Shown: one piece after another, positions 1,254-45,956 of the stretch | Position numbering within the stretch: the first letter of the stretch is position 1 | Layout: the number at the start of each line of letters is the position of its first letter | NCBI GenBank assembly: GCA_014871385.1 | Contig: CM026430.1 | Coordinates: 17,405,933-17,469,932, forward strand | Length of the DNA stretch: 64,000 bases | Direction of reading: 5' to 3' | Source: Ceratodon purpureus | Taxonomy: Eukaryota; Streptophyta; Bryopsida; Pseudoditrichales; Ditrichaceae | Program-made: the position numbers and the translations under genes | Notes under the pieces: generated by a model | The model's input: only the letters and a program-made list of their open reading frames with translations | Database searches by the model: none | What the model was told of the DNA's origin: nothing

Positions 1254-4021
1254 GTTACGCAAACACAAGATGTGTTGGTGAAACCATCTTGTCCGTTAAA
1301 CTTGAAGACTGCCACAGAAGGGGAATTGGAACATCAAACCAAATACAAGGTGAACACCAACGCCGTCATCAACAAGCTTAGGATCAAGCCATCGCAGAAG
1401 TCCCGAATGTCGGTGCCCCTGTGCAGGATGATCCCAATGGCAAAGGTCAGACCAGTGGGCGAAGTGGGTGTGCAGCATTTGGAGCGGGAGTTCGTCAAGG
1501 GGTATAGAGATGGCGACCGCGTCATGTACATCTCCATGTACAACAACGAGGAGCAGACACGAGATGTTACGGATGAGGTCATGGCTAAATGGAGCCCATT
1601 GTGGAGGGACGCGAATGATGCATTTGAATCTGAGCTTCTAAGTGACGAGGACTGGTCGCAATTCTCGGGGAAGATGTTTTTTGTCTGGGAAGGTAACCAT
1701 CGCCTCTCAGCATGGCTTCGTCATATCAACAAGCATCATGCAGAGGACCCGTCATGGCACATATCTGTGAACTGCATAGTACTCGATCCACGTGGCCATG
1801 TTGGCAATCTTCTTCACGCAATGCATGACATCAACTGGTAAGTACTGGTTTCTTTTTTCCTGTTTTTTTTTTGTTACTTTATCTCATCTCTTTTATTCAT
1901 CATACGGATTTTGGTTCATTTTCAGGTCGACTGAGAATGACCACGTCAAGAGTAATCTCCCTGCAAAACTATTTCAAATCCGCTCTTTCGGAATGATGAA
2001 GCTGGAGGAATTCAAAGACCTCCTCAGTCCTGAAGAGTATGACGCATGTTTGAAGAACAAGCCACCTAATCCCTCCTGGTTTCCCTTGACAACTAAAATT
2101 TTCATCGCATTTTTGTACCGAGTAAGTCCTACCTCCTCTCTCTATTTGCTTCTTATTATTCAATACTCATGAAATTTCCTAAGTCTGAATTCTCCTTCTA
2201 CAGCGGGAACTCGCTGCGGCCTCCGATGAAGCAGCCAATGCCTACCGCATGAAGACACCCGAGGATGAGCAGTCTGCAAGTGCAGTTTGGGATGTCATGA
2301 ATGAGGCATCAGAGAGAATGGTCGAAGCCATCAAGAAGAAGGACTTTACCAAGTACTTGGCCATTGCAAATCCCAAGAATGGTGACGACTTCCTCAACGA
2401 GGTGACTCACTGATCATTGTTCAATTCACTGTTTCCCATGACTTCCATAATTTCTGTATTTATCTTTTTCAAACTTCGGTGCTTCTTGCAGATTAATCGC
2501 CATTTCAGTCTCAACAGTAAGCCTGAGATGTCAGTGGATAAGCTTCAGAAGATTGTTCCTGCGGCCGTTGAGGCCAAATACAAGGCTCGTTGGTTGAAGT
2601 GGTGGAACTCATCCCCGAGTGCTCGAACGTCTTACAGATTTCTGCCATCTGAATTCAAGGACACCGAATTCGACCCATGGTTGAACAAAGCTTCATTCTG
2701 GGCTGGGGTAATTTTCATAAAAAATCCATTCCAATTCCTTGTTCCTTTGAATTTTTACCATATTCATTCTTCGATGCTACTTATATGAATTTTGTATTAC
2801 AGTTGGAGGAAGCCGTCATCCACGAAGTCGAGGACGTATTCAAGTCTGAGAACCTCGATATCAATTGGATGGCATTTCCTGATGTCCAACAGCCGGGCGA
2901 TTTTGTCGAGAGTTCACGTATTCTCTTGTGGGACAAGGCCTTCCCTACATTCATTGGAAAAAAAGCTGAGAAGCACTTCGACAAGAAGTCCAACTTCGCT
3001 AAATTCCCGGGAACCGCTGAAGTTGTCAAGCGGGTTACTTACCGGTACATTACCTTACTTAATCTCATTTCCATTTCATAGTTTTCTTTGTAATTGTTTT
3101 TTATACTTACCTCCTTCTTGTCTTCCCATAGGTACTTCAAGCGAGAGCTTGTTTTGAAGGGGGCCATCAGCGTTCAGCACCTCCCCAAGTACTTCAAGCT
3201 TTGGACGCAGACATCCTCGGACGAGTATATGTACTCTCCTCAGCAGATAAAAAGGTACAAACCTGCTCACCTGGATGCTGGATGCTGGTATCTTGATTGT
3301 ATTGGTGGTTTCACTATTGACTCCGAGGCGGAAGTCAAGATGCTGCACGATGGGGGTACGGTTGTGGTGGAGGACTCCGTGGATGATGCAGAAGGTCGTG
3401 AAGGAGAGCAGGATCAGTCTTCTGCTCCACCACCAAAGAGAGGGAGAGGAAGGCGACTGAAACCTTTGCGTTCTCGGTCAGAGGCATCACAGCAAACTGG
3501 TGCGGAGTCTTCCGCGCCAACTGAGAAGGCACCGGAGCCCTCTCCGGGTATTGTCGTTACGAACCCTTCTCCAGCTTCTTCGCCGGCTCCTTCATCGATC
3601 AGTGCTTCGGAGATCACCAGAGGTCTCCTTCAGCAGAGGAAGGCCAAACTATATCCTCAAACAACTTCTTCAGCTGGAGCTTCGATTTCCACACATGTTT
3701 CCGTCTTCAACTCATCTGTGGATTCCTTGTTACGGCGAAATAGGAGACAGGAGAGAAAAGGGGGCGACCCGGATTGGATCAAGACTCAAGACTTCATTCG
3801 CAAGGTTTGTTCCTATATTTTGACATCTAATGGATTCTGCCAACTCTACTCGCTATGTAGTTACTAACTCTCCTTTCTTGTTTCCTCTAGTTTGGAGCAG
3901 GCCGCGAAAACGAAGTTCCGGACCGGTGCAAACAAGAGAACCATCTGGGAGTCGACTTGATCATTGCCGACATCCCTGAGAATCTTCCCGTCCCATCCGT
4001 TTCCATTCCCCCCACGAGTAT
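1254..4021 (+). pseudogene. ParB/methyltransferase-like gene, outer copy, 5' part cut by the inner element
   Basis: Exons are 1254-1837, 1926-2121, 2204-2401, 2492-2707, 2803-3044, 3132-3804 and 3891-4021. All have GT-AG signals and matching phases, and exon lengths are identical to the inner copy (584, 196, 198, 216, 242, 673). The first exon carries the ParB-like segment FVWEGNHRLSAW. The exon at 3132 carries a basic AT-hook-like patch PPKRGRGRR. The last exon begins the methyltransferase-like domain (LIIADIPENLP) and is interrupted at cacgagtat by the inner element. Reading on into the insertion gives a stop after a few codons. The remainder of the gene resumes at 21834. Confidence 0.85.
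4013..4021. repeat. Target-site duplication, left copy (9 bp)
   Basis: The 9-mer cacgagtat directly precedes the inner element and recurs at 21826-21834 directly after it. A run of Cs next to it makes the exact border uncertain by a few bases. Nine base pairs is the typical MULE duplication length. Confidence 0.85.
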
Positions 4022-4230
4022 GAGGGAAGCTTGTACGTGAGCGGAGAGCGCAGAGCGGAGAGCGGTGAGCGCAGATTTGGAGAGCGGAGAGCACAGAATG
4101 GGGGACAGAACCTAAAAATAGCACTTTTTTTACTAAAAATAAAATATAAAATTAGAAGATTCGAATATACTTAGTATATTTTTGGAAAGTTACTAATTTT
4201 AGTAACTTTATTGACCCTATAACCGTGGAC
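4022..4230. repeat. Left terminal inverted repeat of inner element
   Basis: The first 80 bases are dominated by GAGAGCG, GAGCGG and GTGAGCG motifs. They match the reverse complement of 21758-21825. A second matching patch, accctataaccgtgg at about 4214-4228, is complementary to ccacggttatagggt near 21707. The inverted repeat is therefore about 120-200 bp with a diverged AT-rich middle. Confidence 0.85.
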
Positions 4231-4605
4231 TAATTACAGTATTTTCATTGAATTTGTAGTTCATATTCTCCTTTCTTGGTGATTAATTTTTTTAACGTGC
4301 ACCAATTACTATGCTCCAGCTCCTTCTAACTAGTTCAGGCATACAGTAATTCCCCTTATCTCCTTAAATTTATATGCAAATTACTACTTAGAATGTTTTG
4401 GTATTGAACCTGTGAACAGGGATCAAGTAACATTTAATTTCATAACATTGCTAGAATTCATCCACTATAGTCTACATGCCTTTCTCCTTTTTTTTTTTTT
4501 TTTTTTAAATTTTTTTGAAATTTGTTTTGTATTTTTTATAAAATTTTCTTTATTCTATCTATCTTGTTAGAGGGGTCAAAAGCCTCCTTGCATTTGATTC
4601 TCTCC

Positions 4606-4660
4606 TTCATTTTATTTTCACAATCATTTTATTTTCACAATCATTTTATTTTCACATTCA
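4606..4660. repeat. 17-bp AT-rich tandem repeat, three copies
   Basis: The unit attttattttcacaatc is repeated three times between the left terminal repeat and the first gene of the inner element. The surrounding 4230-4900 is AT-rich with long T runs and shows no gene. Confidence 0.8.
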
Positions 4661-4921
4661 ATTTGTTGATCTCCTTCATATTATTTTCAACCTTCATTTT
4701 AAATATTGCTATTCTTTTCTTTAATCTTTTTAATTTCAATTTATATAAATGTTTTTTTTTTTAAATTTTTTTTTTTTTTTTTTTTTCATTCTTTAATTTT
4801 TAAAGAAAAATTTAAATGCTAAATGACCTCTGCTAAACCTTCACATTCGGTTTAGGAGGATGACAACTTTTAAATGAATGAATAGCCGATTTTCAAGGGC
4901 GCCAAGCATCTTCTTCAGGGA

Positions 4922-4929
4922 TATTTAAG
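4922..4929 (+). promoter_or_regulatory. TATA-like box TATTTAAG
   Basis: TATTTAAG lies about 80 bp before the start codon at 5007. The same octamer precedes the next plus-strand gene of the element at 10234, which supports a shared promoter type. No transcription start can be read from the sequence. Confidence 0.45.
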
Positions 4930-5006
4930 ATAAGAGTAGGGAATGTCTCTGCCTCTTTTGTATTGGTGTTATGTGAAGCTCTTTTCCGTAGTGCGGGACA
5001 GCAGCT

Positions 5007-5459
5007 ATGGAAGACGTCAGAGATATTGTTGTTTCACTCGCTGACGATGTTTGTCCATTTCAACCATATGTTGAGGTGGAGGACGAAGAAGAGGTGATGG
5101 CCAACAGCCAAGGGCGTCCGTCGACATCGGATGTTGCGGTACAACCGGATGTAAGAGCTGACCCTCCACGTTCAGAAAATTCGGATGAAATCATAGTGCT
5201 AGAGAAGGACACAGATGTGCCTTTGCAACCACATGCATACTCGAGGGTTGGAAAGATCCCAAGGGGAACCTATTCCAGGGAATCAGTTAATCGGAGGCGG
5301 GGAGGTGGGCCATTGCTGAAACGATCATACCAAGGACATTTGCCAAGTGTGGGAACGAAAGTGAATGCGAATGTAGTTTCTCCTGTAGTACAGTCAGCGG
5401 CTGGCAGTCCTGCTGATAGTGTAGTGGGCAACCCTAAACGTGTTAGGTTCGAAGATTAG
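5007..5459 (+). CDS. Small acidic element protein with SUMO-interacting-type motif (150 aa)
   Basis: A single uninterrupted exon encodes 150 aa. It starts at the first ATG after a TATA-like box, and an AATAAA lies at about 5491. The N-terminal third is acidic (VEVEDEEEV). Residues 62-65 form a hydrophobic IIVL core flanked by acidic residues (SDEIIVLEKD), which fits the consensus of SUMO-interacting motifs. The C-terminal half is basic with SRESVNRRRGGG and a final NPKRVRFED. No enzymatic domain is recognised. It is the leftmost gene of the inner element and converges with the transposase gene, whose stop is at 5714. A role as an adaptor for SUMOylated host proteins is inference. It could also be an unrelated disordered protein. 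Confidence 0.7.
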   Translation: MEDVRDIVVSLADDVCPFQPYVEVEDEEEVMANSQGRPSTSDVAVQPDVRADPPRSENSDEIIVLEKDTDVPLQPHAYSRVGKIPRGTYSRESVNRRRGGGPLLKRSYQGHLPSVGTKVNANVVSPVVQSAAGSPADSVVGNPKRVRFED

Positions 5460-5713
5460 GACATCTAATAACAAGTATATGTTTGCCTTAATAAAGGGTA
5501 CATACCAGGGGATACGAGGTATATAGTGCACTTCTTCAAGATACAATGTATTGAAATAGAATGCAATCAATGTGAACGCCAAAACCTTTAATATAATGAA
5601 AAAGTCAATACAGCTTCTGAATAGCTGACTTAGTACATGGTATATTACTAAAATCATTCACTACGTGACAAATGGCCATTGTGGAAATGGAAGTTCTAAA
5701 GTAGGAGGGCTAC

Positions 5714-8700
5714 CTACTTCTTCGCCAAGGGGTGACGCAAGATTCCACTCTCTAAGAGTAGCTTGACCTCGTTGAAGCTGAAGGTAGGCGCATGGATGAA
5801 AAGCTCCGCTTCGGGATCACGGTTGCAGACCTTCAAGAATATGTAGTATAGGTGCTTACAATACGTGAACTGAGTCTTCCCACGGAACGTAGTCATTGTC
5901 TTCTTGAATGCTGGGCAAGTGCAACCAGGGTAAGAACTGATGGTAATCTGGTACCGTGTGATGTGTGGAGCGACGCCCGAATCCAGCCCAATGATGCAAC
6001 CGTGGCCCGGCTCAGGTATCATGGTGACGGAACGGAGGCGCGCTTTAAGAGATTCGGAGGAGCCCATGGAGAGTCGCTGCGCTTGATTGGGACGAGTGGC
6101 AGTGCGCTTCACCATCTTGCCGTCTCTCTTCCCAGGGTAGCGGTCAGCGTCTGCAGGGACTGGCACTGAGCTGAGATTTGCAGGAGGCGGGGCAGAGGAG
6201 AAGAGGCGTCTTGGGGAGACCGGTTTCTTCTGCGGAAGTTGAAAGCCCGCTGCTTCGAGGGCAAGAATCTCAGTCAGTTTTAGGTTAGTACCTAGTTTCA
6301 CTGGCCAGACCTCAGGAATGGAGGGGAATTCCTGGTCCTTCGAGTAGTGTGCTACCCACTTGCGCTTAGAGCCTTTCACGCAGCGTTCAATATCGTCGGA
6401 GCAGAAGAAGAACTCAGTCTTCTCCACTAGGTTCCTGCGATAGTTAGTCCAGAGCCCAGTGTAGGTCGGTGCAGCTGTGCAATGGGGCCCCCTGACGATT
6501 CTCTCAGTGCACTTCTTCTTCGTTTCAGCTCTTTGGGCCCAGCAGCACTTCGCAGAAAGTTTGTGAAGTCTCGAAATGTGCCACTCCTTCACGTCCACCT
6601 TGGTTTCTTCAACCGCGTTGACATGGCGAATGCCGCCCTTGTTCACAGGTGAAGGTAAAGGGGAATCAACTTCCTGGGCAGGAGGTTGCGTACATTGTAC
6701 CTCGGTGTCGTGTTCGGAGTCGTCTTCCACAATGACGGGCATCTGCATAGGGCGAGCCCTGACGGCACGTCTTGGGCCTCTTGGGCGTGAGAAGTTGGTC
6801 TTATCCGGGCGATGAGACTCTTCGTCAGCTCCGATAAGGACGTCGGCTTTTCGCTTCTGTGAACCGAAGACTTCCGCTCCTGGCATGATAGGCTGACGGG
6901 TGCAGAACTCATCCGCGCCTGGCATATCGAGCATGGGCTTGTCGAGCAGTGTAGGATTTCCCCATTTCTTCGCGTTGCGTTCAGCCATCCGAAGCCTGAG
7001 TTCCTTCTTGGATGGTCCTGTTCCGCCGACGTCACCTTTGAGGAACTGGTAGTAGTTGACAACCTGTAGAAATGCCCGAACGAAATCGTCCACGGTAGCA
7101 ACGTAGAGGTCGTTCCCGTTGTTTCCTGAAGCTTGGAGCCACTTGTTGTGAACTGTTTCGGCGAGGTTACAGGTAGGCATCTCTGTGAGTTCTTCTTTCG
7201 TGAATTTCTGCACATTTGACAGTAGGTGCCGTTAGATTCACGGATTAGACTTTTGTAGGTTAGGGCTACGAAACCAGTATGAAAAACATCAAAACAGAGT
7301 GCAGAGATCGTACCTCGGTCATGAATCCCCCCCACTGGCGGAAGCGGTGGTGCCAGAATGACAGCCACTGATCGAGTTTGATGAGCCCGCTCTCGCCAAC
7401 GACCCCGGTGGATGCCCACCATGCTCGCAACGCGTGGTACAGAGTTTCCGCCTCTGCCATGCTGGTCGCATTCTTGTACTGAGTGCACATCTTCTTGTGC
7501 TGTTCCCAGAGTTCTTCGGGGAAGTGCTTCTGTGTATACGCCACCATGTTCTAAGTCCAGTGGAACAAGCACGACCGCTCCCGGTCCTCCATTGGGTCCT
7601 CTTTGTTGCCATTGCCGTAAAGGATCCGCACTGCATTCCAATTGGCCTGTGCGTTATCCGCCATGAATCCCTTGAAGTTCGGCGCTGCAACGCCATTGAT
7701 CTCCATGACCAGGTTCAGGTTTTTCCAGAAGACGAGCTGGGCGTCCGTGTCCTCGGACTGCATGTCGCAAGTGGCGATTGTCATCACGCGGCAGTAGGTG
7801 GCGTCGTACACATGGCACGCCATCGTCGACCAATCTTTGACGCGTTTGACATGGTCGAACATGATCCATGCGTTCTCCAAATCGCCACCAGCTTGCATAC
7901 GGCTGACCAAGTCGACACCACTGCCCGGACCGACCTCCGACATCTTGAAGACAAAGACTTTGTCACGCATGGATCCCTGACCAGGAAACCTATTCTCCTG
8001 GACATACGCCCAGAGACTGTTACCACGGAGCTTGGTGATACCGTCCATGATTCCGTACCTTACGAATTTTTTGAAGGTGGCAACTTTGTTGCGGATGTTG
8101 GGCGACGCCATGTCTGGGCGACGCCATGTCTTTGCATCGATCCAGAACAGGAACCAGCTCCTCCATCGTCAGCTTCCTCGGTGGTGCATCCTCGGGCTGT
8201 AGAAGGTAGCTCCCGATGAGGAGTTTGCTCGCCTCCAAGACAACGGCGCTCTTTGTTGCTTTGTTGTTCATCTCTACCTGCTCTTCTATTAAGCTACTAA
8301 TCTCTGCTTTAGAGTCTCTGTAGTCTCCTACTTTCACTGGATGATCATGTGTTCCTATGTGAATACACGCTCTAGTCTGATTCGGTTTGCCCACAACGTA
8401 ATAAATCTTAGCCTCGCATGTAGCTACACATGATGGAGGTTCTTTACATACCTTGCACACCAGCGTGGAGTCAGATGGAGGAGGCTGGTCCATGACAAAA
8501 GCTTGCAGGGTACAGCCTTCGAACTCAGTCTCGTTGACCTCGAAGATCTTGGGAACACGCTTGAGGAAGTCACACTCCTGGTTGCTGCAGCGGAGCCATC
8601 CGACGCAGGTGGAACTTCGAAAAGAGAGTCCGAAGTCGTTTTTGATGTTTGTTGTGATGGTCTTCGTCCACAAGTGTCCGTCGTATTGTTTGTCCATTCC

Positions 8701-9408
8701 CTGCATAGACTTGGCGGCGAGCTTAGAGGATCCTGCAGTAGCTGGGGGCAACTCAAAAAGAACCGGACCATCAAACTTCGCAGGCAAGTACTCTACTCTG
8801 TCGTGTCTAATAGTGGAATAGTCTATCTTCTTCAAAATGTTTTTGGACCCACGCGTCTTAGCAATCTCTTTAAGGAGCGGAACAATGCTAACTGTGACCT
8901 GGGACAATGGAGGAGACACATTGGAAGGAGGAGCATCTGCGTGGACCTTAGGCACCAACTTGACGGGACTGACTTCGTCATCAGAAGAGAGAGATATGAC
9001 GGTCGGAGGAGGTTTCTCTACATCTGAAGTCTCGGTACCAGGCTCGACTTTGACTTTGACATCACGAGGTAAGGGAGTCTGAATTGTGCAAGTAGAAGAG
9101 CGACGGGGGGTGAGGATCTCAGTGGATGCAGCCATGAGAGAATCAGTAAGACCATAGACTCTATAGGATCCAGGGAGGAGTCTCCACTGCAACATGTTGT
9201 TCTCATCTCTCACCGAAGGTTGCCCGAGAGTGTGGGTAACCTCGGCAGTAACGTCATCAGAGATCTCCTCCTCTATACTGATGGAATCCTCACGAAAATG
9301 GAATCTGAGACTGAGGCGAAGGGAGGACACCGTAGCTAGACCATCGTCATCTACGCGAAACCTAAGAGGGATGCCCATGCCTTGGGCGTACAGACAGACC
9401 ATCCCCAT
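5714..9408 (-). pseudogene. Mutator-like transposase with FLYWCH/WRKY-GCM1-like finger, DDE core and SWIM finger; two lesions
   Basis: Exon 1 runs from an ATG at 9408 to 7314 and exon 2 from 7207 to 5714, with a 106-bp intron in phase 0. The order is: acidic N-terminus with VISLSSDDE; a zinc-finger-like part with CSNQEC, CKVC and HIGTHDHP; a MULE core with first Asp in HVYDATY, second Asp in FMADNAQ and SCLFHW; a helical segment with ALRAWW and NKWLQ; and a C-terminal SWIM finger CTCPAF...YCKHLYYIF. Two lesions break it. The 16-bp segment tgggcgacgccatgtc is duplicated in tandem at 8099-8130, shifting the frame. An in-frame TAG lies at 7551-7553 just after the CLFHW motif. Without the extra 16 bp the exon is exactly divisible by three, for a product of about 1190 aa. 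An upstream start in an earlier exon is possible. Confidence 0.85.
8099..8130. repeat. 16-bp perfect tandem duplication causing a frameshift
   Basis: tgggcgacgccatgtc occurs twice in direct succession. On the minus strand it duplicates codons for D-M-A-S-P, and because 16 is not a multiple of three it shifts the transposase frame. Confidence 0.95.
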
Positions 9409-9762
9409 ATTCGCAGGCAACTCAGAGATACTAGAAGAAGAACGGAGAAGAGTGAGTGTACTAGCCAAGCTGTATCGCGAGAGCAAAGTGAGAGGAATGA
9501 TGCGTCGCTGTTGATCATTTTATTCAAATTGGAATGTCCATGTGGACGACTAGGTAATGATTCATTCTGCTACGTAACGAATGTATGATTAAAGAGAGAC
9601 GGCGCTAACTAATTATGATGTTGCTTTTTGCAGGCCCATAAATATGTAGTAAGATTTTTAGAATATTGCTTCGCGTATTTCAACGGTGGAGCAGATTCTT
9701 TTTTTTATGGGGTGTGATTGGATTAAAAAGAGCCGTCTATTCCTTCTGCATTTCAAACAATA

Positions 9763-9852
9763 AATATATAGAATTTGAATTAATCAAATTCATGCATTAG
9801 TTATATATTTATAGGACTAATGCACGCATATGATTTATTCAAATTCTATATT
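9763..9852. repeat. Long AT-rich inverted repeat between divergent element genes
   Basis: Arms 9763-9801 and 9816-9852 are nearly complementary over about 37 bp (atatagaatttgaat...tgcattagt and its reverse) around a 14-nt AT loop. It lies in the 0.9-kb spacer between the transposase (-) and the CTD-mimic gene (+). The rest of the spacer also holds an imperfect direct repeat (gagccgtc...ctacatttaaaacaat at about 9730 and 9982). It could be a MITE remnant or a regulatory cruciform. Confidence 0.7.
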
Positions 9853-10233
9853 TTATGCAGTGTAAGGGTTCCTCAATTTTTGAAGATCTAAGTATATGAG
9901 GTCAAGAATTTTAGAACTGTACTTTAACAATTTGAATCGTGATGCGGATTCTGTTTAACATGATGTATTATAAGATTAGAATGAGCCGTCATTTTAATTC
10001 TACATTTAAAACAATGATTATAAAAAGGAGCATGATTAAAGTACTTGATATCAAATCTTTCAATTTAGAGTGCACTTAAATTTATTCCTTATAAATAAAG
10101 GTTGATATTTTAAATCTAGCTTCAATTAAAAATTGTTTTTGATATTCTTAATATAAAGTGGGCAGACAATCTGTCAGTTGTTGAGATTGTATATCAACTT
10201 AGGGTTTTTGGGTTCTTAGTTGGTTGTAATAGG

Positions 10234-10240
10234 TATTTAA
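10234..10240 (+). promoter_or_regulatory. TATA-like box TATTTAA
   Basis: TATTTAAG lies about 60 bp upstream of the ATG at 10300. It is the same octamer as that upstream of the 5007 gene. Confidence 0.45.
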
Positions 10241-10299
10241 GCAGGGAGAGGTTTTCATGAAAGTCTTTTTGTGAGAGAGTCCTTCCTTTGGTTAGACAC

Positions 10300-13200
10300 A
10301 TGAAGCAGAGTGGAGGGCCATCTCCCTCCACTTATGTTACTCCTAAACCTAGAAGAAAACCAGGTCGTACAGATTTTACGGATAGAAGAGCGAGAAAGAG
10401 AAGAGAGACTCGTAAGAAGTTATGCTTGAAAGGTGACCCTTTGAATGCACCCGTGAAAAGGAGAGGAGCAGGTGTGCCAGTAGCTTTGAAGTTTTCTAGC
10501 ATTCGCAAAGTTATTCTAGACTCTATAGAAGAGGATAAGGAAGATTTTTTACAGAACACCTCAATCGGTAATCGCGAGCAGGAACAGGCGGTACTAGTTA
10601 GTAGTGATGCACGTGAGGCCATGACGGAAGAATTAGTCTTTAATTGTAGTCAAAGAGCAGAGTCACCGCAACCTTCTATTCGTTTCAATGAATTTTCGAC
10701 AGAGGAGCCGGATTCTCAATCTGATCTATATTTCAACACTGAGCAGGTAAGCTTTTCTTTCACCGTCTTGAATGTTGTGCATTCTTAAAATGAACTAAAT
10801 GTTTTATAGAGTAGAATCATTCCTATTTACAAAATATATATTAATTTTAAAAAAGTACCAAATGATATGCTAAATGTTAATGTCGCGGAACTGAAATGGG
10901 TGATTTTTTTTAAAATAAATGCGTAGTGTAACCCAAGGGTAAGGTTAGACGGAAATTCGAGTAGAGACACTCATCCTGAGGAGGGTTGCGAAGTGGATCA
11001 TTTTCTTGCCATCGCGAGGAGAGCACGGTCGGGGATACTGGCAGCAGGTGAAGGAGGAGCAATGGCTGCGAGAGAGGAGCACGTGAGGGCAGCCCTTGGG
11101 GTGGAGGTCGGTGCAGAGGACTTGGAGCAGGCTCCTATCGACATGGCCGCGGATGACCTGACAGGAGGGGAGGAGCTGCCTGGGGATGCCACCGAGGAGC
11201 ATGAGACGACGGATGGGGAGAATGGCGTGGAAGACCAGGTACGGAATTTGTGTTCAATGATTGGGTTAATGATTAGAGACTGTACGGGTTTTGATGTTCA
11301 GATTGTTAGTGTTGTAAGATGTTTGGTCGCGGATTTAGACTTTGCAGTGTGGAGGAAAGAGATTACTTTGTTTGGGTTTGCGAATCCTTCTCCAACAATG
11401 GCAGCCAAGTGGGAGGTTGAGGATTCAATACATTGGGCCGCGAGGTGTGAGGTGCGGATCCTGGATCGAACTGCGGCCATGGCCGCATGGTGGGAGGGGA
11501 AGCATAGAGGAAGTGCCGCAGCAGAGCCTCCTGCACCAACCACGGACACCCTGGCCGCGAAGCAGGAGTTGGGGTTTACGAGGAATTGGGGGAGAGGCGC
11601 AGCGGAACCTCCTGCAGCAAGCTCCGACGCCATGGCCGCGAAGGAGGAGTTGGGGTTTACTGTAAATTACGGGAGAGGCGCAGTGGAGCCTCCTGCAGCA
11701 AGCTCCGACACCAAGGCCGCGAAGGAGGAGTTGGGGCTTACGGAATTTACTGCGGCCATAGCCGCATGGCGCCAGGGGAATGCCACTGAAGAGGAGGGGA
11801 AGCCTTGCGGGAGAGGCGCAGTGGAGCCTCCAACAGCAAGCTCCGACACCAAGGCCGAGAAGGAGAGGAGCCTCCCCATGAGGCATTCGGTGACGAATGC
11901 CACTGAAGCGGAGGGGAAGCCTTGCGGGAGAGGCGCAGTGGAGCCTCCTGCAGCAAGCTCCGACACCAAGGCCGCGAAGGAGAGGAGCCTCCCCATGAGG
12001 CATTCGGTGACGAATGCCACTGAAGAGGAGGGGAAGCCTTGCGGGAGAGGCGCAGTGGAGCCTCCAACAGCAAGCTCCGACACCAAGGCCGAGAAGGAGA
12101 GGAGCCTCCCCATGAGGCATTCGGTGACGAATGCCACTGAAGCGGAGGGGAAGCCTTGCGGGAGAGGCGCAGTGGAGCCTCCTGCAGCAAGCTCCGACAC
12201 CAAGGCCGCGAAGGAGAGGAGCCTCCCCATGAGGCATTCGGTGACGAATGCCACTGAAGAGGAGGGGAAGCCTTGCGGGAGAGGCGCAGTGGAGCCTCCT
12301 GCAGCAAGCTCCGACACCAAGGCCGCGAAGGAGAGGAGCCTCCCAATGAGGCATTCGGTGACGAATGCCACTGAAGAGGAGGGGAAGCCTTGCGGGAGAG
12401 GCGCAGTGGAGCCTCCTGCAGCAAGCTCCGACACCAAGGCCGCGAAGGAGAGGAGCCTCCCAATGAGGCATTCGGTGACGAATGCCACTGAAGCGGAGGG
12501 GAAGCCTTGCGGGAGAGGCGCAGTGGAGCCTCCTGCAGCAAGCTCCGACACCAAGGCCGCGAAGGAGAGGAGCCTCCCCATGAGGCATTCGGTGACGAAT
12601 GCCACTGAAGCGGAGGGGAAGCCTTGCGGGAGAGGCGCAGTGGAGCCTCCTGCAGCAAGCTCCGACACCAAGGCCGCGAAGGAGAGGAGCCTCCCCATGA
12701 GGCATTCGGTGACGAATGCCACTGAAGAGGAGGGGAAGCCTTGCGGGAGAGGCGCAGTGGAGCCTCCTGCAGCAAGCTCCGACACCAAGGCCGAGAAGGA
12801 GAGGAGCCTCCCCATGAGGCATTCGTTGACGAATGCCACTGAAGCGGAGGGGAAGCCTTGCGGGAGAGGCGCAGTGGAGCCTCCTGCAGCAAGCTCCGAC
12901 ACCAAGGCCGCGAAGGAGAGGAGCCTCCCCATGAGGCATTCGGTGACGAATGCCACTGAAGAGGAGGGGAAGCCTTGCGGGAGAGGCGCAGTGGAGCCTC
13001 CTGCAGCAAGCTCCGACACCAAGGCCGCGAAGGAGAGGAGCCTCCCAATGAGGCATTCGGTGACGAATGCCACTGAAGAGGAGGGGAAGCCTTGCGGGAG
13101 AGGCGCAGTGGAGCCTCCTGCAGCAAGCTCCGACACCAAGGCCGCGAAGGAGAGGAGCCTCCCCATGAGGCATTCGGTGACGAATGCCACTGAAGCGGAG

Positions 13201-16066
13201 GGGAAGCCTTGCGGGAGAGGCGCAGTGGAGCCTCCTGCAGCAAGCTCCGACACCAAGGCCGAGAAGGAGAGGAGCCTCCCCATGAGGCATTCGGTGACGA
13301 ATGCCACTGAAGCGGAGGGGAAGCCTTGCGGGAGAGGCGCAGTGGAGCCTCCTGCAGCAAGCTCCGACACCAAGGCCGCGAAGGAGAGGAGCCTCCCCAT
13401 GAGGCATTCGGTGACGAATGCCACTGAAGAGGAGGGGAAGCCTTGCGGGAGAGGCGCAGTGGAGCCTCCTGCAGCAAGCTCCGACACCAAGGCCGCGAAG
13501 GAGAGGAGCCTCCCAATGAGGCATTCGGTGACGAATGCCACTGAAGAGGAGGGGAAGCCTTGCGGGAGAGGCGCAGTGGAGCCTCCTGCAGCAAGCTCCG
13601 ACACCAAGGCCGCGAAGGAGAGGAGCCTCCCAATGAGGCATTCGGTGACGAATGCCACTGAAGCGGAGGGGAAGCCTTGCGGGAGAGGCGCAGTGGAGCC
13701 TCCTGCAGCAAGCTCCGACACCAAGGCCGCGAAGGAGAGGAGCCTCCCCATGAGGCATTCGGTGACGAATGCCACTGAAGAGGAGGGGAAGCCTTGCGGG
13801 AGAGGCGCAGTGGAGCCTCCTGCAGCAAGCTCCGACACCAAGGCCGCGAAGGAGAGGAGCCTCCCCATGAGGCATTCGGTGACGAATGCCACTGAAGCGG
13901 AGGGGAAGCCTTGCGGGAGAGGCGCAGTGGAGCCTCCTGCAGCAAGCTCCGACACCAAGGCCGCGAAGGAGAGGAGCCTCCCCATGAGGCATTCGGTGAC
14001 GAATGCCACTGAAGAGGAGGGGAAGCCTTGCGGGAGAGGCGCAGTGGAGCCTCCTGCAGCAAGCTCCGACACCAAGGCCGAGAAGGAGAGGAGCCTCCCC
14101 ATGAGGCATTCGTTGACGAATGCCACTTAAGCGGAGGGGAAGCCTTGCGGGAGAGGCGCAGTAGAGCCTCCTGCAGCTAGCTCCAACACCAAGGCTGCGA
14201 AGGAGAGGAGCCTCCCCATGAGGCATTCGGTGACGAATGCCACTGAAGAGGAGGGGAAGCCTTGCGGGAGAGGCGCAGTGGAGCCTCCTGCAGCAAGCTC
14301 CGACACCAAGGCCGCGAAGGAGAGGAGCCTCCCCATGAGGCATTCGGTGACGAATGCCACTGAAGCGGAGGGGAAGCCTTGCGGGAGAGGCGCAGTGGAG
14401 CCTCCTGCAGCAAGCTCCGACACCAAGGCCGCGAAGGAGAGGAGCCTCCCCATGAGGCATTCGGTGACGAATGCCACTGAAGCGGAGGGGAAGCCTTGCG
14501 AGAGAGGCGCAGTGGAGCCTCCTGCAGCAAGCTCCGACACCAAGGCCGAGAAGGAGAGGAGCCTCCCCATGAGGCATTCGGTGACGAATGCCACTGAAGC
14601 GGAGGGGAAGCCTTGCGGGAGAGGCGCAGTGGAGCCTCCTGCAGCAAGCTCCGACACCAAGGCCGAGAAGGAGAGGAGCCTCCCCATGAGGCATTCGGTG
14701 ACGAATGCCACTGAAGCGGAGGGGAAGCCTTGCGGGAGAGGCGCAGTGGAGCCTCCTGCAGCTAGCTCCAACACCAAGGCCGCGAAGGAGAGGAGCCTCC
14801 CCATGAGGCATTCGGTGACGAATGCCACTGAAGCGGAGGGGAAGCCTTGCGGGAGAGGCGCAGTGGAGCCTCCTGCAGCTAGCTCCGAAACCAAGGCCGC
14901 GAAGGAGAGGAGCCTCCCCATGAGGCATTCGGTTACGAATGCCACTGAAGAGGAGGGGAAGCCTTGCGGGAGAGGCGCAGTGGAGCCTCCTGCAGCAAGC
15001 TCCGACACCAAGGCCGCGAAGGAGAGGAGCCTCCCCATGAGGCATTCGGTGACGAATGCCACTGAAGAAGAGGGGAAGCCTTGCGGGAGAGGCGCAGTGG
15101 AGCCTCGTGCAGCAAGCTCCGACACCAAGGCCGAGAAGGAGAGGAGCCTCCCCATGAGGCATTCGGTGACGAATGCCACTGAAGCGGAGGGGAAGCCTTG
15201 CGGGAGAGGCGCAGTGGAGCCTCCTGCAGCAAGCTCCGACACCAAGGCCGAGAAGGAGAGGAGCCTCCCCATGAGGCATTCGGTGACGAATGCCACTGAA
15301 GCGGAGGGGAAGCCTTGCGGGAGAGGCGCAGTGGAGCCTCCTGCAGCAAGCTCCGACACCAAGGCCGCGAAGGAGAGGAGCCTCCCCATGAGGCAGTGGA
15401 GGGGGCATATTTGACTATAACTCTTGTTATTTTATTGTTATATGATGTTTTACTCTCAGTTCTTATAATTTGTATGTCGTATGTGTTGTAGGAGTTCACG
15501 GATCAACTCACGGGGACTGAAGCTGATGGCCCAACTCCTGCAGAAACTGAGGTAAGTTAGTCTTATTTTCTTTTTATTTTGAATATTGCAATGGAGATTA
15601 AAGTTCTTTAAGTAGTTTTGTATACTGAAATGGTGACTTGTCTCTATGCTCGTAGGTATTATCAGATGCACCCTTGTCCATCAGTTCGCCGATCTCAGTG
15701 ATCAATGTTTCTGACCTTTCGGATTCATTTGATCAGCCCCATTTATGTAGTTGTGATTTAGAGAACCCTGTAGGTTTAGGTAGTGGACCTCTGGAGGTCC
15801 ACTCCCCTCAGTACATGCCCACGTCTCCTGTCTACGAGCCTACATCCCCGGGCTACATGCCTACTTCTCCACGACTTGGTACCCCGCCGATGTCTCCACC
15901 TTCTCCTTCCTCGCCTATTACAGTGAGGAGGCCAGCCCATGTTGTCTTCGCCCTACCGGCAATACTGCCTTGCCCTGTCCAACAGACCAGGCGTTTTTGG
16001 AGGAGGCGCCGTCATTGGAACTGTAGACAGGCTAGGGAGTACTATAGCCGTGCTCCTCGTACATAG
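10300..16066 (+). CDS. Basic nuclear-type protein ending in RNA polymerase II CTD-like heptads (inner copy)
   Basis: Proposed exons are 10300-10746, 10927-11238, 15492-15551 and 15656-16066. All are in phase 0, giving about 409 aa. The N-terminus is strongly basic (KPRRKPGRTDF, RRARKRRETRKK), like a nuclear localisation signal. Exon 2 has MAAREEH and acidic stretches. The last exon has three heptads Y-[M/E]-P-T-S-P-x (about residues 326-346), a Pro/Ser tail and a conserved basic end. In this model the 117-bp array (11780-15395) lies in a 4.25-kb intron. However, exon 2 also stays open straight into the array, up to a TAA at 14128-14130, so a repeat-containing isoform cannot be excluded. The stop at 16064-16066 is shared with the outer copy. 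The ParB/methyltransferase exons begin 123 bp later with an acceptor in phase 0, so this may be one alternatively spliced unit or two genes. Confidence 0.6.
11512..11760. repeat. Diverged 81-bp precursor units upstream of the 117-bp array
   Basis: In the plus frame three units of the form GRGA-EPPAASSD-AAKEELGF recur with a period of about 81 bp. They share the first part of the 117-bp unit (gagaggcgcagtggagcctcctgcagc), so the main array probably arose from this shorter unit by gaining the ERSLPMRHSVTNATE part. Confidence 0.7.
11780..15395. repeat. 117-bp minisatellite, 31 units in perfect register
   Basis: The anchor ggggaagccttgcgggag first occurs at 11797 and last at 15307, exactly 30 periods of 117 bp apart, so there is no net indel. 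In the plus frame the unit encodes 39 aa (GKPCGRGAVEPP, AASSDTKA, ERSLPMRHSVTNATE and so on). Variation is limited to a few sites (EEE/EAE, AAK/AEK, PAA/PTA, CCC/CCA before ATG) and recurs in multi-unit blocks, pointing to homogenisation. Because 117 is a multiple of three and the unit is GC-rich, one plus frame and all three minus frames are open over long stretches. One unit has cacttaa in place of cactgaa (14128), a plus-frame stop. Confidence 0.95.
15812..15874 (+). repeat. Three CTD-like heptad repeats (inner copy)
   Basis: Three 21-bp units encode YMPTSPV, YEPTSPG and YMPTSPR. The outer copy has five, so heptad number varies between elements as it does in RPB1 tails. Confidence 0.9.
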
Positions 16067-16188
16067 TGGCCCCTGTGGCTTATGATTTATTATTCAAAGG
16101 ATATGTATCCGTACAGGAAGCTATTGCTCTACTACTCTTCATAATTGTTTGATTTCCTTTGATCCTCTGAATGTATGACTTATGGCAG

Positions 16189-19100
16189 GTAACCCAGACA
16201 CAGGATGCGTTGCCAGCGCCCTCTTGTCCTAGTGAATTGACAAATGTAGTTGACGGTGAATTGGGACATCGGGTACAACACAAGCAAGACTCCAATGGCG
16301 TCATCAACAAGCTCCGAATTCATCCAACGTCAAAGTCACGTATTCTAGTTCCCCTTTGCAGAATGCTCTCTATGGCAAAAGTGCGACCTGTGGGAGAAAT
16401 GGGAGTACAACATTTGGAGCGAGAGTTTGTGAAAGGCTACAGGGATGGAGACAGAGTCATGTACATATCCTTGTACAACCACGAAGAGAAGACAGCCGAC
16501 GTCACTGAGGAGACCAAGGCTGAGTGGAGTCCTTGTTGGCAAAAAGCGAATGATGCTTTCGAGAATGAGCTCTTGGCCGACTCGGATTTGAAGGAGTTTT
16601 CTGGGAAGATGTTCTATGTCTGGGAAGGTAACCATCGACTTGCTGCCTGGTACAGACATATCAACAACCATCACCGCGAAGATCCTGCGTGGCACATCTC
16701 TGTGCACTGCATTGTTCTTGACCCACGCGGACATGTGGGAAACCTTCTTCATGCCATGCACGACATCAATTGGTGAGAATATGAACCCCCTCTAATTTGG
16801 TCAGACGTCTTCATGTTCTTCCATTCTACTTACTACCGTCTATTCGTGCAGGTCTACAGAAAATGATCATGTAAAGAGCAATCTTCCGGCTAAACTTTAC
16901 CGAATTCGCTCCTTCGGTGTGATGAAATTGGAGGAATTCAAGGATCTCCTCACAGCAGAGGAATACCAATTATCTTTGAATCATAAACCAGCTATTCCAT
17001 CCTGGTTTACCTTGCCAACCAAAGTCTTCATCGCTTTTCTTTATCGTGTAAGCACTTGATCCATCCTATCTGACACTTCCATTCTACAATTGATTTTTTT
17101 GGTCTGTGAACTAAAAAGGGGGATAACTATGTTTTCCAGAGAGAAATTGTGGCGGCCTCAGACGAAGCTGCAAGAATGTACAAGGAGAAAACAGCCATTG
17201 AAGACCAAACAGCAGCAGGTGTTTGGGATGCCATGACTGCAGCTAGAAACAACATGGTCGAATCCATTAAGAAGAAGGACTTCACCAAGTACTTGACAAT
17301 TGCAAATCCCAAGAACGGTGACGACTTCCTCAATGAGGTTATACTCTTACCGTGGTAGACTGCAGAATGTTTATCTCTTGTTTGTCTTCGTATTCATATT
17401 CTCTAAATTCTCTCTACTTCTTTGAGATTAATCGCCATTACAGTGACAACTCTAAACCTGAGATGTCACTCGATAAGCTTCAAAAGGTTGTTCCAGCGGC
17501 CGTTGACGCCAAGTACAAGGCTCGTTGGTTGAGGTGGTGGAACTCATCTCCGAATTCTCGAAAGTCTTACAGATTTCCGCCAGCTGAATTCAAGGACACG
17601 GATTTCGACCCATGGTTGAACAAAGCTTCGTTCTGGGCCGGGGTGAGTTTCATTCATGAACCGTTTCAAAGACTTCATCCATTCCTCTGTCCCTCATTTC
17701 TTTGTCACTACTACTGATGCGTATTCTTTGTCACTACTACTGATACGTATTCTGTATATTAGTTGGAGGAAGCCGTCATCCACGAAGTCGAGGGCATGTG
17801 CAAGGGGGAGAACCTCGTTATCAATTGGAAGGCATTCCCTGATGTACAACAGCCGGGCGATTATGTCGAGAGTTCACGTATTCTGTTATGGGACAAGGCC
17901 TTTCCTACATTCGTTGGAAAGAATGCTGAGAAGGTGTTCGACAAGAAATCCAACTTTGCTAAATTCCCGGGAACCGCGGAGGTCGTCAAGCGGGTTATTT
18001 ACCGGTACGATACATTCCTTTGTCAAATTCAATTTCCATAATGAGCTCTACATATCTTTCTCATACAACCCTTCTTCTTATTGGTTTCCTTAGGTACTTT
18101 AAGCGAGAGCTTGTTCTGAAGGGGGCACTTAAAGTTCATCAACTGCCTGCATTCTTTACTGCTTGGACGTCGAGAACCTCGGACCAGTGTATGTACTCTC
18201 CGAAACAGCTGAAAAGGTACAAAAATCCTCACTTGCTTGAAGGATGCTGGTATCTTGACTGCTCTCGTGGTTTCACGATTGACTCAGAGGTAGACGTCAA
18301 GACTCTACACGATGGGGGTGAGGTTGTGGTGGAGGACTCCGTGGATGATGCAGAAGGTCGTGAAGGAGAGCAGGATCAGTCTTCTGCTCCACCACCAAAG
18401 AGAGGGAGAGGAAGGCGACTGAAATCTCTGCGTTCTCGGTCGGAGGCATCACAGCAAACTGGTGCGGAGTCTTCCGCGCCAGCTGAGAAGGCACCAGAGC
18501 CGTCTCCGGGTGTTGTCGTTACCAACCCTTCTCCAGCTTCTTCGCCGGCTCCTTCATCGATTAGTGCTTCGGAGATCACCAGAAGTCTCCTTCAGCAGAG
18601 GAAGGCCAAACTATATCCTCAACCAACTTCTTCCGCTGGAGCTTCGATTTCCACACATGTTTCCGTCTTCAACTCATCTGTGGATTCCATGTTACGGCGA
18701 AATAGGAGACAGGAGAGAAAAGGTGGCGACCCGAATTGGATCAAGACTCAAGACTTCATTCGCAAGGTTTGTTCCTATATTTTGACATTTAATGGATTCT
18801 GCCACCTCTACTCGCATTGTAGTTACTAACTCTGCTTTCTTGTTTCCTCAAGTTTGGAGCAGGCCGCGAAAACATAGTTGGGGATCGGTGCAAACAAGAG
18901 GACCATCTGGGAGTCGACTTGATCATTGCCGACATCCCTGAGAATCTTCCCGTCCCATCCGTTTCCGTTCCCCCCACGAGTATTCCGCCTTGGAACTCTC
19001 GCTACAAGGATTATTTGTACGACATCTTCCATTTTGCAGATGATTTCCTGCAGAAAGATGGTGCCATCTGCCTCATCTACAACACTGATCAGAAGCTGGC

Positions 19101-20169
19101 TAAGGATATCGAGGAAGAAGCTGCTAATGGTGGATACGTGCTGTTCAAGGACTGGTGGGGTATCAATGTACTCGGCCTGACTTCTCCTACGAACCCCGAG
19201 AACTTGGTACTTTTCCTGAACATGCCCTTCTCTTCGCTTACTGATAACCCTTCCGCTTCATTTTACTCACTTGTTTTGCTTGACTGCAGACTATGCGATT
19301 CTGGATTCGCGTCTACGTTCGTAGTGGCAGTACTTTCTCCTTCCAGACGAAGAAGGAAGACCTGATACATGGGCTCCTCAACATTACCGAGAGTGATGCC
19401 ATTTTCAACTTGACCGATGTGGATTCGCAGCTCATGAAGGGGGAGGTGCCGTGGAGAGGCCCAAGGGAGAAATCCGTAGAGATGATGCAGGGCATACTTG
19501 AGGAGCTGTCGAAGCCCGGCGACATAGTTGTTGATTGGAATGCTGGGACAGGTAACTCTTCATGCATATCTTTGCTGAATTATTCTTCTCGTTTTTACTA
19601 CAGTTTCTCATTTCTTTGTATCTCTCCGAGTTTCAGGAGCCTCCATCAAGGCTGCCCAGGCTACTGGTCGCCACATTCTCGCTTTTGAGGAGGACGAAGC
19701 CATATTCAACGCCCTTCTCAAACCATCCGCCATGGGCCCTCCTAAACATCCAAGGCCGGCAGCAACAGACGAAGCGCCTCCAAAGAGACCAAGACCTGAT
19801 AAGTGGTGTAAGTCTTCTATTCTTTGTTCAAATTATCCATGCGTTACTTGTCTTTGCAGCTCTACGTACTCGATGTAACCACATTCCGTTCTCTATTGCA
19901 GAGTAGTTTCAGCAACACCGCCACGTGGGCCAACATCAGTGTCCACTCCATCCTGGCGTCTTCATTCCAGCCCAATTCAGCCTTTCATACTTCCGGACTA
20001 CGCAGAGGACTTAGCACAGGCGTTTCAATCTGGAGCCCTTACATATGTTCCTAGTCGGCCAACTACTTTTGATCACAGAGCCCTTCTATTCGTCGATGAC
20101 GAGGCGGTAGAAGGAGATTCAGAGTCATCTAGTTCTGAGAGTGGAAGTAGCGATGGTAGCATGTTTTGA
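16189..20169 (+). CDS. ParB-like plus beta-class DNA methyltransferase-like protein (intact, about 1053 aa)
   Basis: Ten exons: 16189-16772, 16852-17047, 17140-17337, 17427-17642, 17763-18004, 18094-18766, 18853-19206, 19290-19551, 19637-19807 and 19904-20169. The summed length is 3162 nt with all phases matching. The N-terminal domain has a ParB/sulfiredoxin-like signature YVWEGNHRLAAW (near residue 145). A middle region without recognised domain and a basic AT-hook-like patch PPKRGRGRRLK follow. The C-terminal part has motif IV-like VDLIIADIPENLP (DIPE near residue 730), then motif I-like GDIVVDWNAGTG (Asp near 903) and motif II-like GRHILAFEED. That order (IV before I) is the beta class of N6-adenine/N4-cytosine methyltransferases, and ParB-methyltransferase fusions are known from phages. 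The usual DPPY is DIPE here, so catalysis is doubtful. The protein ends in an acidic Ser-rich tail (EGDSESSSSESGSSDGS). Its true 5' end may include the preceding CTD-mimic exons. DNA binding with or without methylation is inference. Confidence 0.8.
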
Positions 20170-20682
20170 GTTTGAAGGAGGCTCCGGTCTTTCATTGTTT
20201 TTATTGGATTTGCTTTGATTTAATTGGAGTTCATTGCGTAATCCTTCGTCTACTCTACTACCCTGAATCTATACTTGTTACGATTCTCATTTCCAAATCG
20301 TCTCCTCCTATGTAGAGGATGAAATGTCACAACTGTAATGCTCAAAATATAATATGAAGAATGAAATGTTACAAAAGAAATGCTCAAAATTTAAATTGCG
20401 CTGTAACTTATATTTTAACCATTCAAAATCCCACATTTCCTAACCATGTTACCTATTCTTGACTTGGTGTACATCTTGGTTTCTTCTACTCCATTATTCT
20501 ACAGGAACTCTGAAATATTCCACGAACTTTGAAGACCATCTCTTTTAGTTGGTTTCGAGTTCTCTTATTCCTAGAATCATCTATATCATCTAAAACCATC
20601 ATGGTGGAATACTCGTATCTAGATCCAATGAGGTACCACATCTAAAGTAATGTATTCGAACACCCCACTAGACTTCACAGTA

Positions 20683-21054
20683 CTAATCCTTCGAAGGATA
20701 TACAGTCCAACTCTTGTCCATATCAAACCAGCAAGTTTCGCCATCCGATATGATCACTTCGGGCAGCTGAACAACTGGATTCTCATCGACGTTCGATAGC
20801 AAGGGATACGGGATTAGGGACAACTCCATAATACGGAGAAGCTCATTGGTACAAAGCACTGTCCAACGCCATTCACCTTCACCAACATGGAGGCTTCCGA
20901 TGTGCCTAAACGGTGGCAGGTCCATGCCTCGTTCCCTGGCGCGCTCCACCTCCAGCAGCCACGGCCGCAGCTCCTCATAACTCGCCGGTGCCTTTGGGGG
21001 CAAACCTACAGCCGCTCTCGTCCTCCTGGATCTCGCATTACACACCTTCGGCAT
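20683..21054 (-). CDS. Small conserved element protein of unknown function (about 123 aa, inner copy)
   Basis: The frame from the ATG at 21054 to the stop at 20683 encodes PPKAPASYEELRPWLLEVERARERG, then FRHIGSLHVGEGEWRWTVLC, and ends in DGETCWFDMDKSWTVYPSKD. No known domain is recognised. The identical protein is encoded at 23533-23904 in the outer element. An upstream exon is plausible: a frame at about 21282-21125 ending CAVCEG before a gtagcg donor could join the acceptor gaattcag just before 21065. It is tail-to-tail with the methyltransferase-like gene and near the right end of the element. It could be a captured host fragment or an element accessory gene. Confidence 0.55.
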   Translation of the reverse strand: MPKVCNARSRRTRAAVGLPPKAPASYEELRPWLLEVERARERGMDLPPFRHIGSLHVGEGEWRWTVLCTNELLRIMELSLIPYPLLSNVDENPVVQLPEVIISDGETCWFDMDKSWTVYPSKD

Positions 21055-21705
21055 CGCGCAACACACTGAATTCTTGTAGTCTTAAAACGTTACAGGCAAG
21101 CTTGCAGATTGACATCCCCGAACTCCTACGCTACCTTCGCATACAGCACAGCATGCCAAGGACTGTGTCACTATCCAAATACGCCACCTACAGACAAGCT
21201 CATGAAACCAAGAGTGACCTCCTTCTCTGGAACCCAGCTTACCAAGTGTTGTTTGATGATGAAAATCTCCTACTTGTATCACTCAAATTCAGATGCTTTG
21301 CTGCCTAGGAAGAGAGAGTAATCTTCGATGAAGACAAGGACTCTGACAAGGTATATCTTGGTTTCAGCAGTCAAGATATTATACACGAATTTTGAAATAT
21401 TCTAGGAAGTTTTCAAACCTTGCCTCCTTTATGTTCTGTGATATTTGTTTTTTTCCTTGTGCATTTACATAATCCTATGAAAGAATTATTTGTTTGATCT
21501 AAAACTTAACGCCTGATCATTATATCTTGCCTAAATCCATGAGAATTATAACAAAATATATGCATGACGTCATCATGACATCAGCCCTAATTTGTATCTT
21601 AGAGAACAAACGTAATAAATTCTTACCAGAGATAACCCTAATTTCCACGGTAATATACTCTTTTCCTAAAAAAAGTGTCAAAATCAAGCCTTATTTTAGT
21701 AATTT

Positions 21706-21825
21706 TCCACGGTTATAGGGTCTACTTTGCTTTTGAAAATTTTCCTAATTCTCAATTCTGTGCTCTCCATTCTGCGCTCACCGCTCTCCGCTCTACGCTC
21801 TCCGCTCACGTACGAACTTTCCCCC
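21706..21825. repeat. Right terminal inverted repeat of inner element
   Basis: The segment holds the complementary CGCTCTC/CGCTCAC motif array (21758-21812) and ends cgtacgaactttccccc. It pairs with the left end at 4022-4230 and is nearly identical to the outer right end at 24556-24675. Confidence 0.88.
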
Positions 21826-21834
21826 CACGAGTAT
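21826..21834. repeat. Target-site duplication, right copy (9 bp)
   Basis: cacgagtat repeats 4013-4021 and is followed by tccgccttgg, the continuation of the interrupted exon as seen uninterrupted near 18980 of the inner copy. Confidence 0.85.
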
Positions 21835-24555: not shown

Positions 24556-24675
24556 TCCACGATTATAGGGTCTACTTTGCTTTTGAAAATTTTCCTAATT
24601 CTCAATTCTGTGCTCTCCATTCTGCGCTCACCGCTCTCCGCTCTACGCTCTCCGCTCACGTACGAACTTTCCCCC
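24556..24675. repeat. Right terminal repeat of outer element
   Basis: The sequence is nearly identical to 21706-21825, including the CGCTCTC/CGCTCAC motif array and the terminal actttccccc. It is followed by unrelated AT-rich DNA from 24676, which marks the end of the outer element. Confidence 0.85.

Positions 24676-45910: not shown

Positions 45911-45956
<46 letters not shown>

Follow-up and report, generated by a model that had tools for sequence, protein, structure and literature searches.

A recently amplified Mutator-type transposon family of Ceratodon purpureus with an apparently exchangeable block of ParB/methyltransferase-like cargo and tandem array

A 64,000-nucleotide stretch of the Ceratodon purpureus genome (the window; contig CM026430.1 of assembly GCA_014871385.1, positions 17,405,933 to 17,469,932) contains a 17.8-kb transposon, here called B, which belongs to a recently amplified Mutator-type family. 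The family has a fixed backbone, consisting of the left end, a small open reading frame (ORF), the transposase gene and the right end, and a cargo gene with its tandem array that appear to be swapped between copies as a block. The block encodes a protein with a predicted ParB fold and a methyltransferase-like region (ParB-MTase) and probably, with the same N-terminus, a protein whose tail resembles the C-terminal domain (CTD) of RNA polymerase II; the array is noncoding. We tentatively suggest, with somewhat less than even confidence, that the block provides a ParB-based, self-directed anti-silencing or activation of the element.

The inverted ends of B lie at 4024-4075 (plus strand, with GAGCGGA subrepeats) and 21771-21822 (minus strand); they are 92% complementary, and their local alignment spans about 62 bp. 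The target repeat CCACGAGTAT flanks the element at 4012-4021 and 21825-21834, and this 10-bp duplication places the final base of B at 21824. The ends and the target repeat confirm the transposon that a first-pass annotation of this DNA had placed, correctly, at 4022-21825. A 10-bp target duplication was also found in all seven other copies with both flanks read, C1a among them (C-labels denote other copies in the genome). B sits within the methyltransferase exon of an older outer element of the same family, A, and the two are nested. The left part of A (653-4021, plus strand) holds its CTD-like exon and its ParB-MTase gene, cut by the insertion of B. The right part (21825-24675, plus strand) includes a third occurrence of the B-type end at 24621-24672, which is the right end of A, and the transposase of A is located upstream of the window. 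C12, inserted in the 117-bp array of another element (L023, 1-522 and 523 onward), is a second self-insertion. One stretch (L044, 1-778, reversed) matches both flanks of C10b side by side at 98% identity without the element; this related empty site indicates that C10b lies in repeated sequence.

In the host genome (362,488,568 bases in 151 contigs) the left end occurs at least 40 times, with 98-100% identity in every case (40 scored of 1188 first-look candidates), which indicates that the family moved recently. Ten 20-kb stretches were compared, comprising the left part of A and nine copies picked from the head of the match list and by strand convenience, not at random. A further 20 short stretches were taken at the expected position of the first cargo exon.

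Mutator membership is supported by the ends, the target duplication and the order of motifs in the transposase, and no Pfam model of Mutator-like elements (MULEs) was matched. The elements have terminal inverted repeats, and their 10-bp duplication falls within the 8-11 bp range of MULEs. The transposase gene (5714-9408, minus strand) has two exons, 9408-7314 and 7207-5714, and 61 homologues of its product were found in the protein database (E<=0.01). The transposase of the window had no Pfam match, and one of 24 homologues weakly matched Transposase_mut (E 0.034). D531, D580, E606 and H612 are invariant across these 24 homologues, which may represent a DDE core whose second Asp is followed by a Cys/His motif; the CxC...CxH pattern in the second exon may be a C-terminal SWIM finger. 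In B two lesions disrupt the gene, namely one stop and a frame shift located at a short tandem duplication. A database transposase 99% identical to that of the window (P0001) is open across both lesions, showing that intact copies exist. Related transposase fragments (44-59% amino acid identity) lie beside C1a (stretch 17007-19987; L021/L022) and C1b (L029/L030), so related families also reside in this genome.

The first-pass annotation had assigned SUMO-interacting motifs (SIMs) to the cargo proteins. Where cargo SIMs were found they did not exceed shuffled controls (P 0.05-0.23), and what stands of the claim concerns the transposase. Motifs were counted in 59 of the 61 homologues, two not being cuttable; these are database homologues and not only copies from the host genome. 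The N-terminal linker contains a sumoylation consensus (ψKxE) in 49 of the 59 and a SIM in 47. Both occur in this order within 45 residues in 37 homologues, compared with a mean of 0.6 and a maximum of 3 in 500 shuffles. Because the homologues share descent, the pair reflects conservation and not independent gain. The ψKxE site is missing in ten homologues, including the four most distant (P0057, P0059-P0061).

The cargo gene begins with an exon encoding a basic N-terminus (10300-10746, plus strand, as are all cargo exons). The reading frame leaves a linker exon (15492-15551) in phase 0 and can continue into either the CTD-like exon (15656-16066), which has its own stop codon, or the ParB exon (16189-16772). 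Judging from this phase, alternative splicing probably joins the linker to one or the other. The first-pass annotation described a CTD-mimic gene; the tail exists and is selected, and it may not stand as a gene of its own, since its upstream exon could be shared with ParB-MTase. The AG/GT splice sites of the linker are kept in 9/9 other elements compared. The ParB-MTase gene (16189-20169) has ten exons that give an open model of 1053 residues, with all nine introns bordered by GT/AG. Its splice borders are kept in other elements, with one exon of C10b unmappable by DNA alignment. The exonic frame stays open throughout in eight of nine elements (A, B, C4, C5, C1a, C8, C12 and C1b), that of A being broken only by the insertion of B. 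C10b has, as mapped, a single stop early in the ParB exon, and in C13 six ParB-MTase exons were read, all open.

The predicted structure of the ParB exon has the fold of the ParB N-terminal domain (ParB/Srx superfamily), and 92 homologues of the exon were found in the protein database at E <= 0.1. No ParB Pfam family was among the profile matches of 90 members (E <= 0.1), a profile search against solved structures gave nothing meaningful, and a structure prediction from two sequences was of no use (predicted local distance difference test score 36.2). The 1053-residue spliced protein had no match at E<=0.01 among 5.8 billion proteins, a likely reason being that the database entries are predictions of exon size. 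The methyltransferase exons (18853-19807) carry a motif IV-like DIPE in the first exon and a motif I-like DWNAGTG spanning the two exons that follow. The N6_N4_Mtase domain (PF01555, β-class DNA methyltransferase) scored 32.1 bits against a curated cut-off of 26.7, and phage methylases align with the region from motif IV as far as motif I. The longest contigs of P0036 (transposase) and P0088 (ParB exon) are both 674,632 long, which suggests that the two lie on one contig. Searches of the viral_contigs and genome_contigs databases returned no relative.

Both the CTD-like exon and the ParB-MTase gene are under purifying selection. Between A and B, synonymous sites in codons 1-300 of ParB-MTase are saturated or close to it (synonymous divergence, dS, about 2 or more), with nonsynonymous divergence (dN) of 0.15-0.24, and dS is only 0.02-0.14 in codons 600-1053. 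This uneven dS indicates that the A/B pair is a mosaic. In codons 701-800 dN exceeds dS, with one synonymous and nine nonsynonymous changes; dN/dS over the whole gene is 0.25. In the diverged part, introns are 45-62% identical compared with 71-89% for exons, and the 60-bp linker exon is just 61% identical. The CTD-like exon has dN/dS of 0.07-0.19 in 15/15 pairs of six alleles. Its dS of 0.73 and dN of 0.074 between A and B bear out the mostly synonymous change that the first-pass annotation had reported for the tail. The first cargo exon evolves faster, with dN/dS of about 0.19-0.64 in 66 pairs of 12 alleles, although for 8 of 22 stretches no exon end was found and the 447 bases taken may include intron. 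Thus dN/dS is not near 1 in all of the genes.

The transposase, on the minus strand, the CTD-like exon, the ParB-fold exon and the N6_N4_Mtase domain are kept in two diverged elements, as had been proposed, and copies beyond these two mainly agree. The CTD-like exon and the ParB-MTase gene are present in 10/10 elements where that region was read, out of 11 (A, B and the nine copies); C9 is excluded because its array occupies the rest of the stretch. The first cargo exon was found in 16 of the 20 further short stretches, in four of them only partially. The backbone is homogeneous: over 4022-9421 the copies compared are 96.5-99.2% identical to B. The small ORF at 4998-5456 (plus strand, about 151 amino acids) occurs in 10/10 other elements read, with 93-99% amino acid identity, and in the ten other elements, which have different arrays, the transposase is about 98-100% identical in amino acids over both exons. 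The cargo is diverged, and amino acid identity is 52-98% for the first cargo exon (tblastn matches) and 72-99% for the ParB exon (C9, not read that far, is excluded). Identity to the window drops in C12, C10b and C1b between about 9.82 and 9.92 kb, immediately to the right of an imperfect palindrome (9760-9856) that lies between the transposase and the cargo gene. The drop comes earlier in A, and in C9 it comes at the first cargo exon. The copies C12, C10b and C1b match the window again from about 21.4 kb, and C1a does so from about 21.15 kb. It appears from these data that the cargo gene and the array, with the fast-evolving first exon, are swapped as a block. The cargo frame is open in 8/9 elements, compared with a transposase without stop or frame shift in 6/11, which is suggestive of a cis-preference, the numbers being small.

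The first-pass annotation had also regarded small genes as kept. The ORF at 4998 was found in all elements read, and the minus-strand ORF at 20683-21081 is not a constant part of the family, occurring in only five of the nine elements read to the right end. Being identical in A and B, the latter had been a candidate for a kept gene and was rejected since it was not found in the other four. In C12, C10b, C1b and C1a the region around it, about 20.4-21.15 kb, is unrelated to the window. A 510-bp segment at 20651-21161 is identical between A and B, with flanking bins at 88-96%, and is likely a recent conversion or a recently acquired segment, because it is absent from four other copies.

The array of B (11778-15395) consists of 31 copies of a 117-bp unit. 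A long tandem array stands at the same place in the cargo gene of each copy, and the kinds of unit differ: in the fetched copies units were 117 bp (two unrelated kinds), 128, 171, 211 and 213 bp. Array units were obtained from 24 of 31 stretches and fell into 12 clusters (blastn); the seven stretches without a unit include C5 and C1a, whose arrays begin beyond the stretch. Units and 330 bases of the first exon were compared in 19 of the 24. All nine pairs sharing a unit had first-exon identity of at least 97.9%, and in the other 162 pairs, with units unrelated or differently cut, it reached up to 98.5%. Arrays therefore seem to change more quickly than the gene does. The 117-bp array was also considered as a coding repeat of 39 amino acids. 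This was rejected, as other copies have at this place units whose lengths (128 and 211 bp) are not divisible by three, and changes between units had no clear third-position excess.

Many unit types contain inverted repeats. The arms are GGCATTCG-gtga-CGAATGCC in the 117-I unit of B, GGCATTCG-gtac-CGAAAGCC in 117-II (C5), CGCATTC-ggagca-GAATGCG in 117-III, GGCATTCT-gtga-AGAATGCC in a 171-bp unit (L042), GGTGTCTGCT-ttcgg-AGCAGACACC in the 213-bp unit (C9) and CCTACTGTC-n6-GACAGTAGG in the 211 and 129 units. When 16 units were each compared with 40 shuffles, the inverted-repeat score was never reached in seven, reached 1-4 times in six and reached 8-33 times in three (C12, C10b and L043). A common 20-bp palindrome pattern was spotted only after the units had been inspected. 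In five unit types, including 117-I, from which the pattern was taken, its fit was equalled by 0-2 of 200 shuffles. It is borderline in L038 (22 of 200 shuffles and 5 of 200 host background).

A possible mechanism would link these parts as follows. The ParB-type protein would recognise repeated palindromic sites in the array of its own element, load on the array and perhaps spread, and then mark or open the chromatin of the element. A link between this protein and transcription would come from the CTD-like form, and the transposase would be modulated by the sumoylation/SIM module. The outcome may be self-directed anti-silencing or activation, akin to that of VANC proteins with their repeat targets. 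A stricter version, in which the protein of each allele is cognate to its own intronic palindromes, as in ParB-parS recognition, and cassette exchange gives one backbone many specificities, is in our view rather doubtful. Several observations count against the proposed mechanism. Arrays differ even at 93% first-exon identity, and gene and array, being neighbours in one physical block, could co-vary through linkage alone. The 180-bp unit has no palindrome, and the 127/128-bp units and one 171-bp unit did not exceed shuffles in inverted-repeat score. The 20-bp pattern fails in eight unit types, and within arrays conservation of the palindrome arms does not clearly exceed that of the remaining unit. 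Motif IV of the methyltransferase region reads DIPE, not DPPY, in 9/9 alleles read there. The cargo was missing from its expected position in 4 of the 20 additional short stretches: L033, L044 and L046 contain no DNA of the window's element and L048 has DNA of the transposase region. Some copies therefore are truncated, rearranged or cargo-less; the evidence from selection and modularity is independent of these four stretches, and they leave our estimate unchanged.

Other functions of the block were weighed against this mechanism. A working DNA methyltransferase, marking the element with N6-methyladenine or N4-methylcytosine as has been proposed for algal ParB-methyltransferase proteins (PMC12477816), would agree with the domain score above the cut-off and the alignment with phage methylases from motif IV to I. 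The catalytic motif of β-class methyltransferases is (D/N/S)PP(Y/F/W). The replacement of the aromatic residue by Glu in DIPE, found also in the diverged C10b allele, makes ordinary methylation by ParB-MTase doubtful, and a phage relative with DIPY retains the Tyr; we regard this function as unlikely. We give a similarly low probability to the idea that protein and array act as a ParB-type partition or target-choice factor in transposition (synapsis, target choice or copy-number control) and not on chromatin. The predicted ParB fold and the inverted repeats in many unit types fit such a role, but the transposase stays outside the co-diverging block, being nearly invariant in ten elements with different arrays. 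Strict immunity is disfavoured by the nested self-insertions of B in A and of C12 in another array. That the cargo is a passive capture without function for the element, as in Pack-MULEs, seems very improbable. Gene capture is common in MULEs (PMC6446971, PMC6431247), and the four stretches without cargo at its place are in line with it, but purifying selection, presence in every element read and the 92 ParB-exon homologues argue otherwise.

The tail called a CTD mimic in the first-pass annotation could also be merely a Pro/Ser/Thr-rich low-complexity tail that mimics nothing in RNA polymerase II, and this we consider a real possibility, if one with less than an even chance. The heptads (YMPTSPx/YEPTSPx) retain Tyr1, Pro3, Thr4, Ser5 and Pro6 and lack Ser2. 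The Pfam Rpb1 repeat model scores 20.0 and 19.9 bits, just under its cut-off of 20.3, and the YSPTSPS consensus is absent. The number of heptads varies from three in B to four in C12 and five in A, and C1a, C4 and C1b each have one altered heptad. On the other hand, in-register YxPTSPx heptads are found in all 10 copies read, none of 20000 shuffles of the A exon or of the B exon gave two or more heptads, and purifying selection on the exon is strong. A search of the host genome for the RNA polymerase II CTD family returned nothing, as did its 14 controls, and it therefore carries no weight for either view. CTD mimicry is put forward here as a resemblance only.

Beyond the nested elements, the window contains host genes with ankyrin repeats (37752-38378), a short-chain dehydrogenase (40689-41393), a near-cut-off match to Ovate, which we take to be a plant family (49780-50583), and an Exo70 N-terminal domain (62188-62562). 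An ORF at 27777-28250 (minus strand) resembles by eye a reverse-transcriptase fragment of a plant long interspersed nuclear element, with no Pfam match at E 0.01. Degenerate CTCTAAA repeats, similar to the plant telomere type, occur at 29780-30014, a pure (CCTCT)17 microsatellite at 36848-36932 and a run of 43 G at 45913-45955.

If our interpretation holds, the known range of ParB-methyltransferase accessory proteins would widen from algal transposons to a land-plant element of Mutator type, and recognition of the element's own repeats would be a testable idea of their role. The homogeneous backbone and the diverged, array-linked cargo would form a natural experiment on the escape of transposons from sequence-specific silencing. 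A transposon-borne CTD-like exon under selection would offer a direct handle on transcription in the host, and the sumoylation/SIM pair of the transposase would connect with known SUMO-related cargo of MULEs.

Among known systems, bacterial ParB/parS differs in that the protein here is fused to a methyltransferase-like domain, the sites differ between copies and no partner ATPase was noticed among the ORFs of the element. The family also has GNHR at what we take to be the position of GERR in ParB. VANC proteins of Arabidopsis VANDAL elements are reported to bind noncoding repeats in the VANDAL elements that they come from and to erase silent marks (PMC10398659). Compared by description, both families are of MULE type, carry a gene other than the transposase and have noncoding tandem repeats that diverge rapidly (PMC10398659, PMC5735166), here 12 array clusters at one place. 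Unlike VANC, the cargo protein here is ParB/methyltransferase-like, and binding and anti-silencing would apply to it by analogy. KIU/Kaonashi MULEs captured a ULP1 SUMO-protease domain (PMC13317346). They share a link to the SUMO pathway with the family described here, in which the sumoylation-consensus and SIM pair is in the transposase itself and no protease was seen. Viral Mariner elements also encode methyltransferases beside the transposase, with another transposase superfamily, separate restriction-type genes and no ParB domain, ParB not occurring as a word in the text (PMC3627910). Another close counterpart is Sola1-1_Ec32 of Ectocarpus, for which an accessory protein with ParB-like and DNA methyltransferase domains is reported and similar green and red algal transposon proteins are cited (PMC12477816). 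Both are DNA transposons of roughly 20 kb with a protein of about 1,100 residues that combines ParB-like and N6/N4-type methyltransferase domains and is encoded on the strand opposite to the transposase. The algal element, compared by description, is a Sola transposon of a brown alga, whereas that of Ceratodon purpureus is Mutator-type, lives in a land plant and has a CTD-like exon, arrays and block exchange. The first-pass annotation had called the system undescribed, which is too broad for the ParB and DNA-methyltransferase proteins, already in print for giant algal transposons. No report of the set of ParB, CTD-like and SUMO-type features in a land-plant MULE was found in the literature searched, preprints and most subscription papers lying outside the search. 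The gene type is known from algal transposons. What is new is its occurrence in a land plant, the CTD-like exon, the SUMO module found in the transposase and, most of all, the apparently exchangeable block of gene and array.

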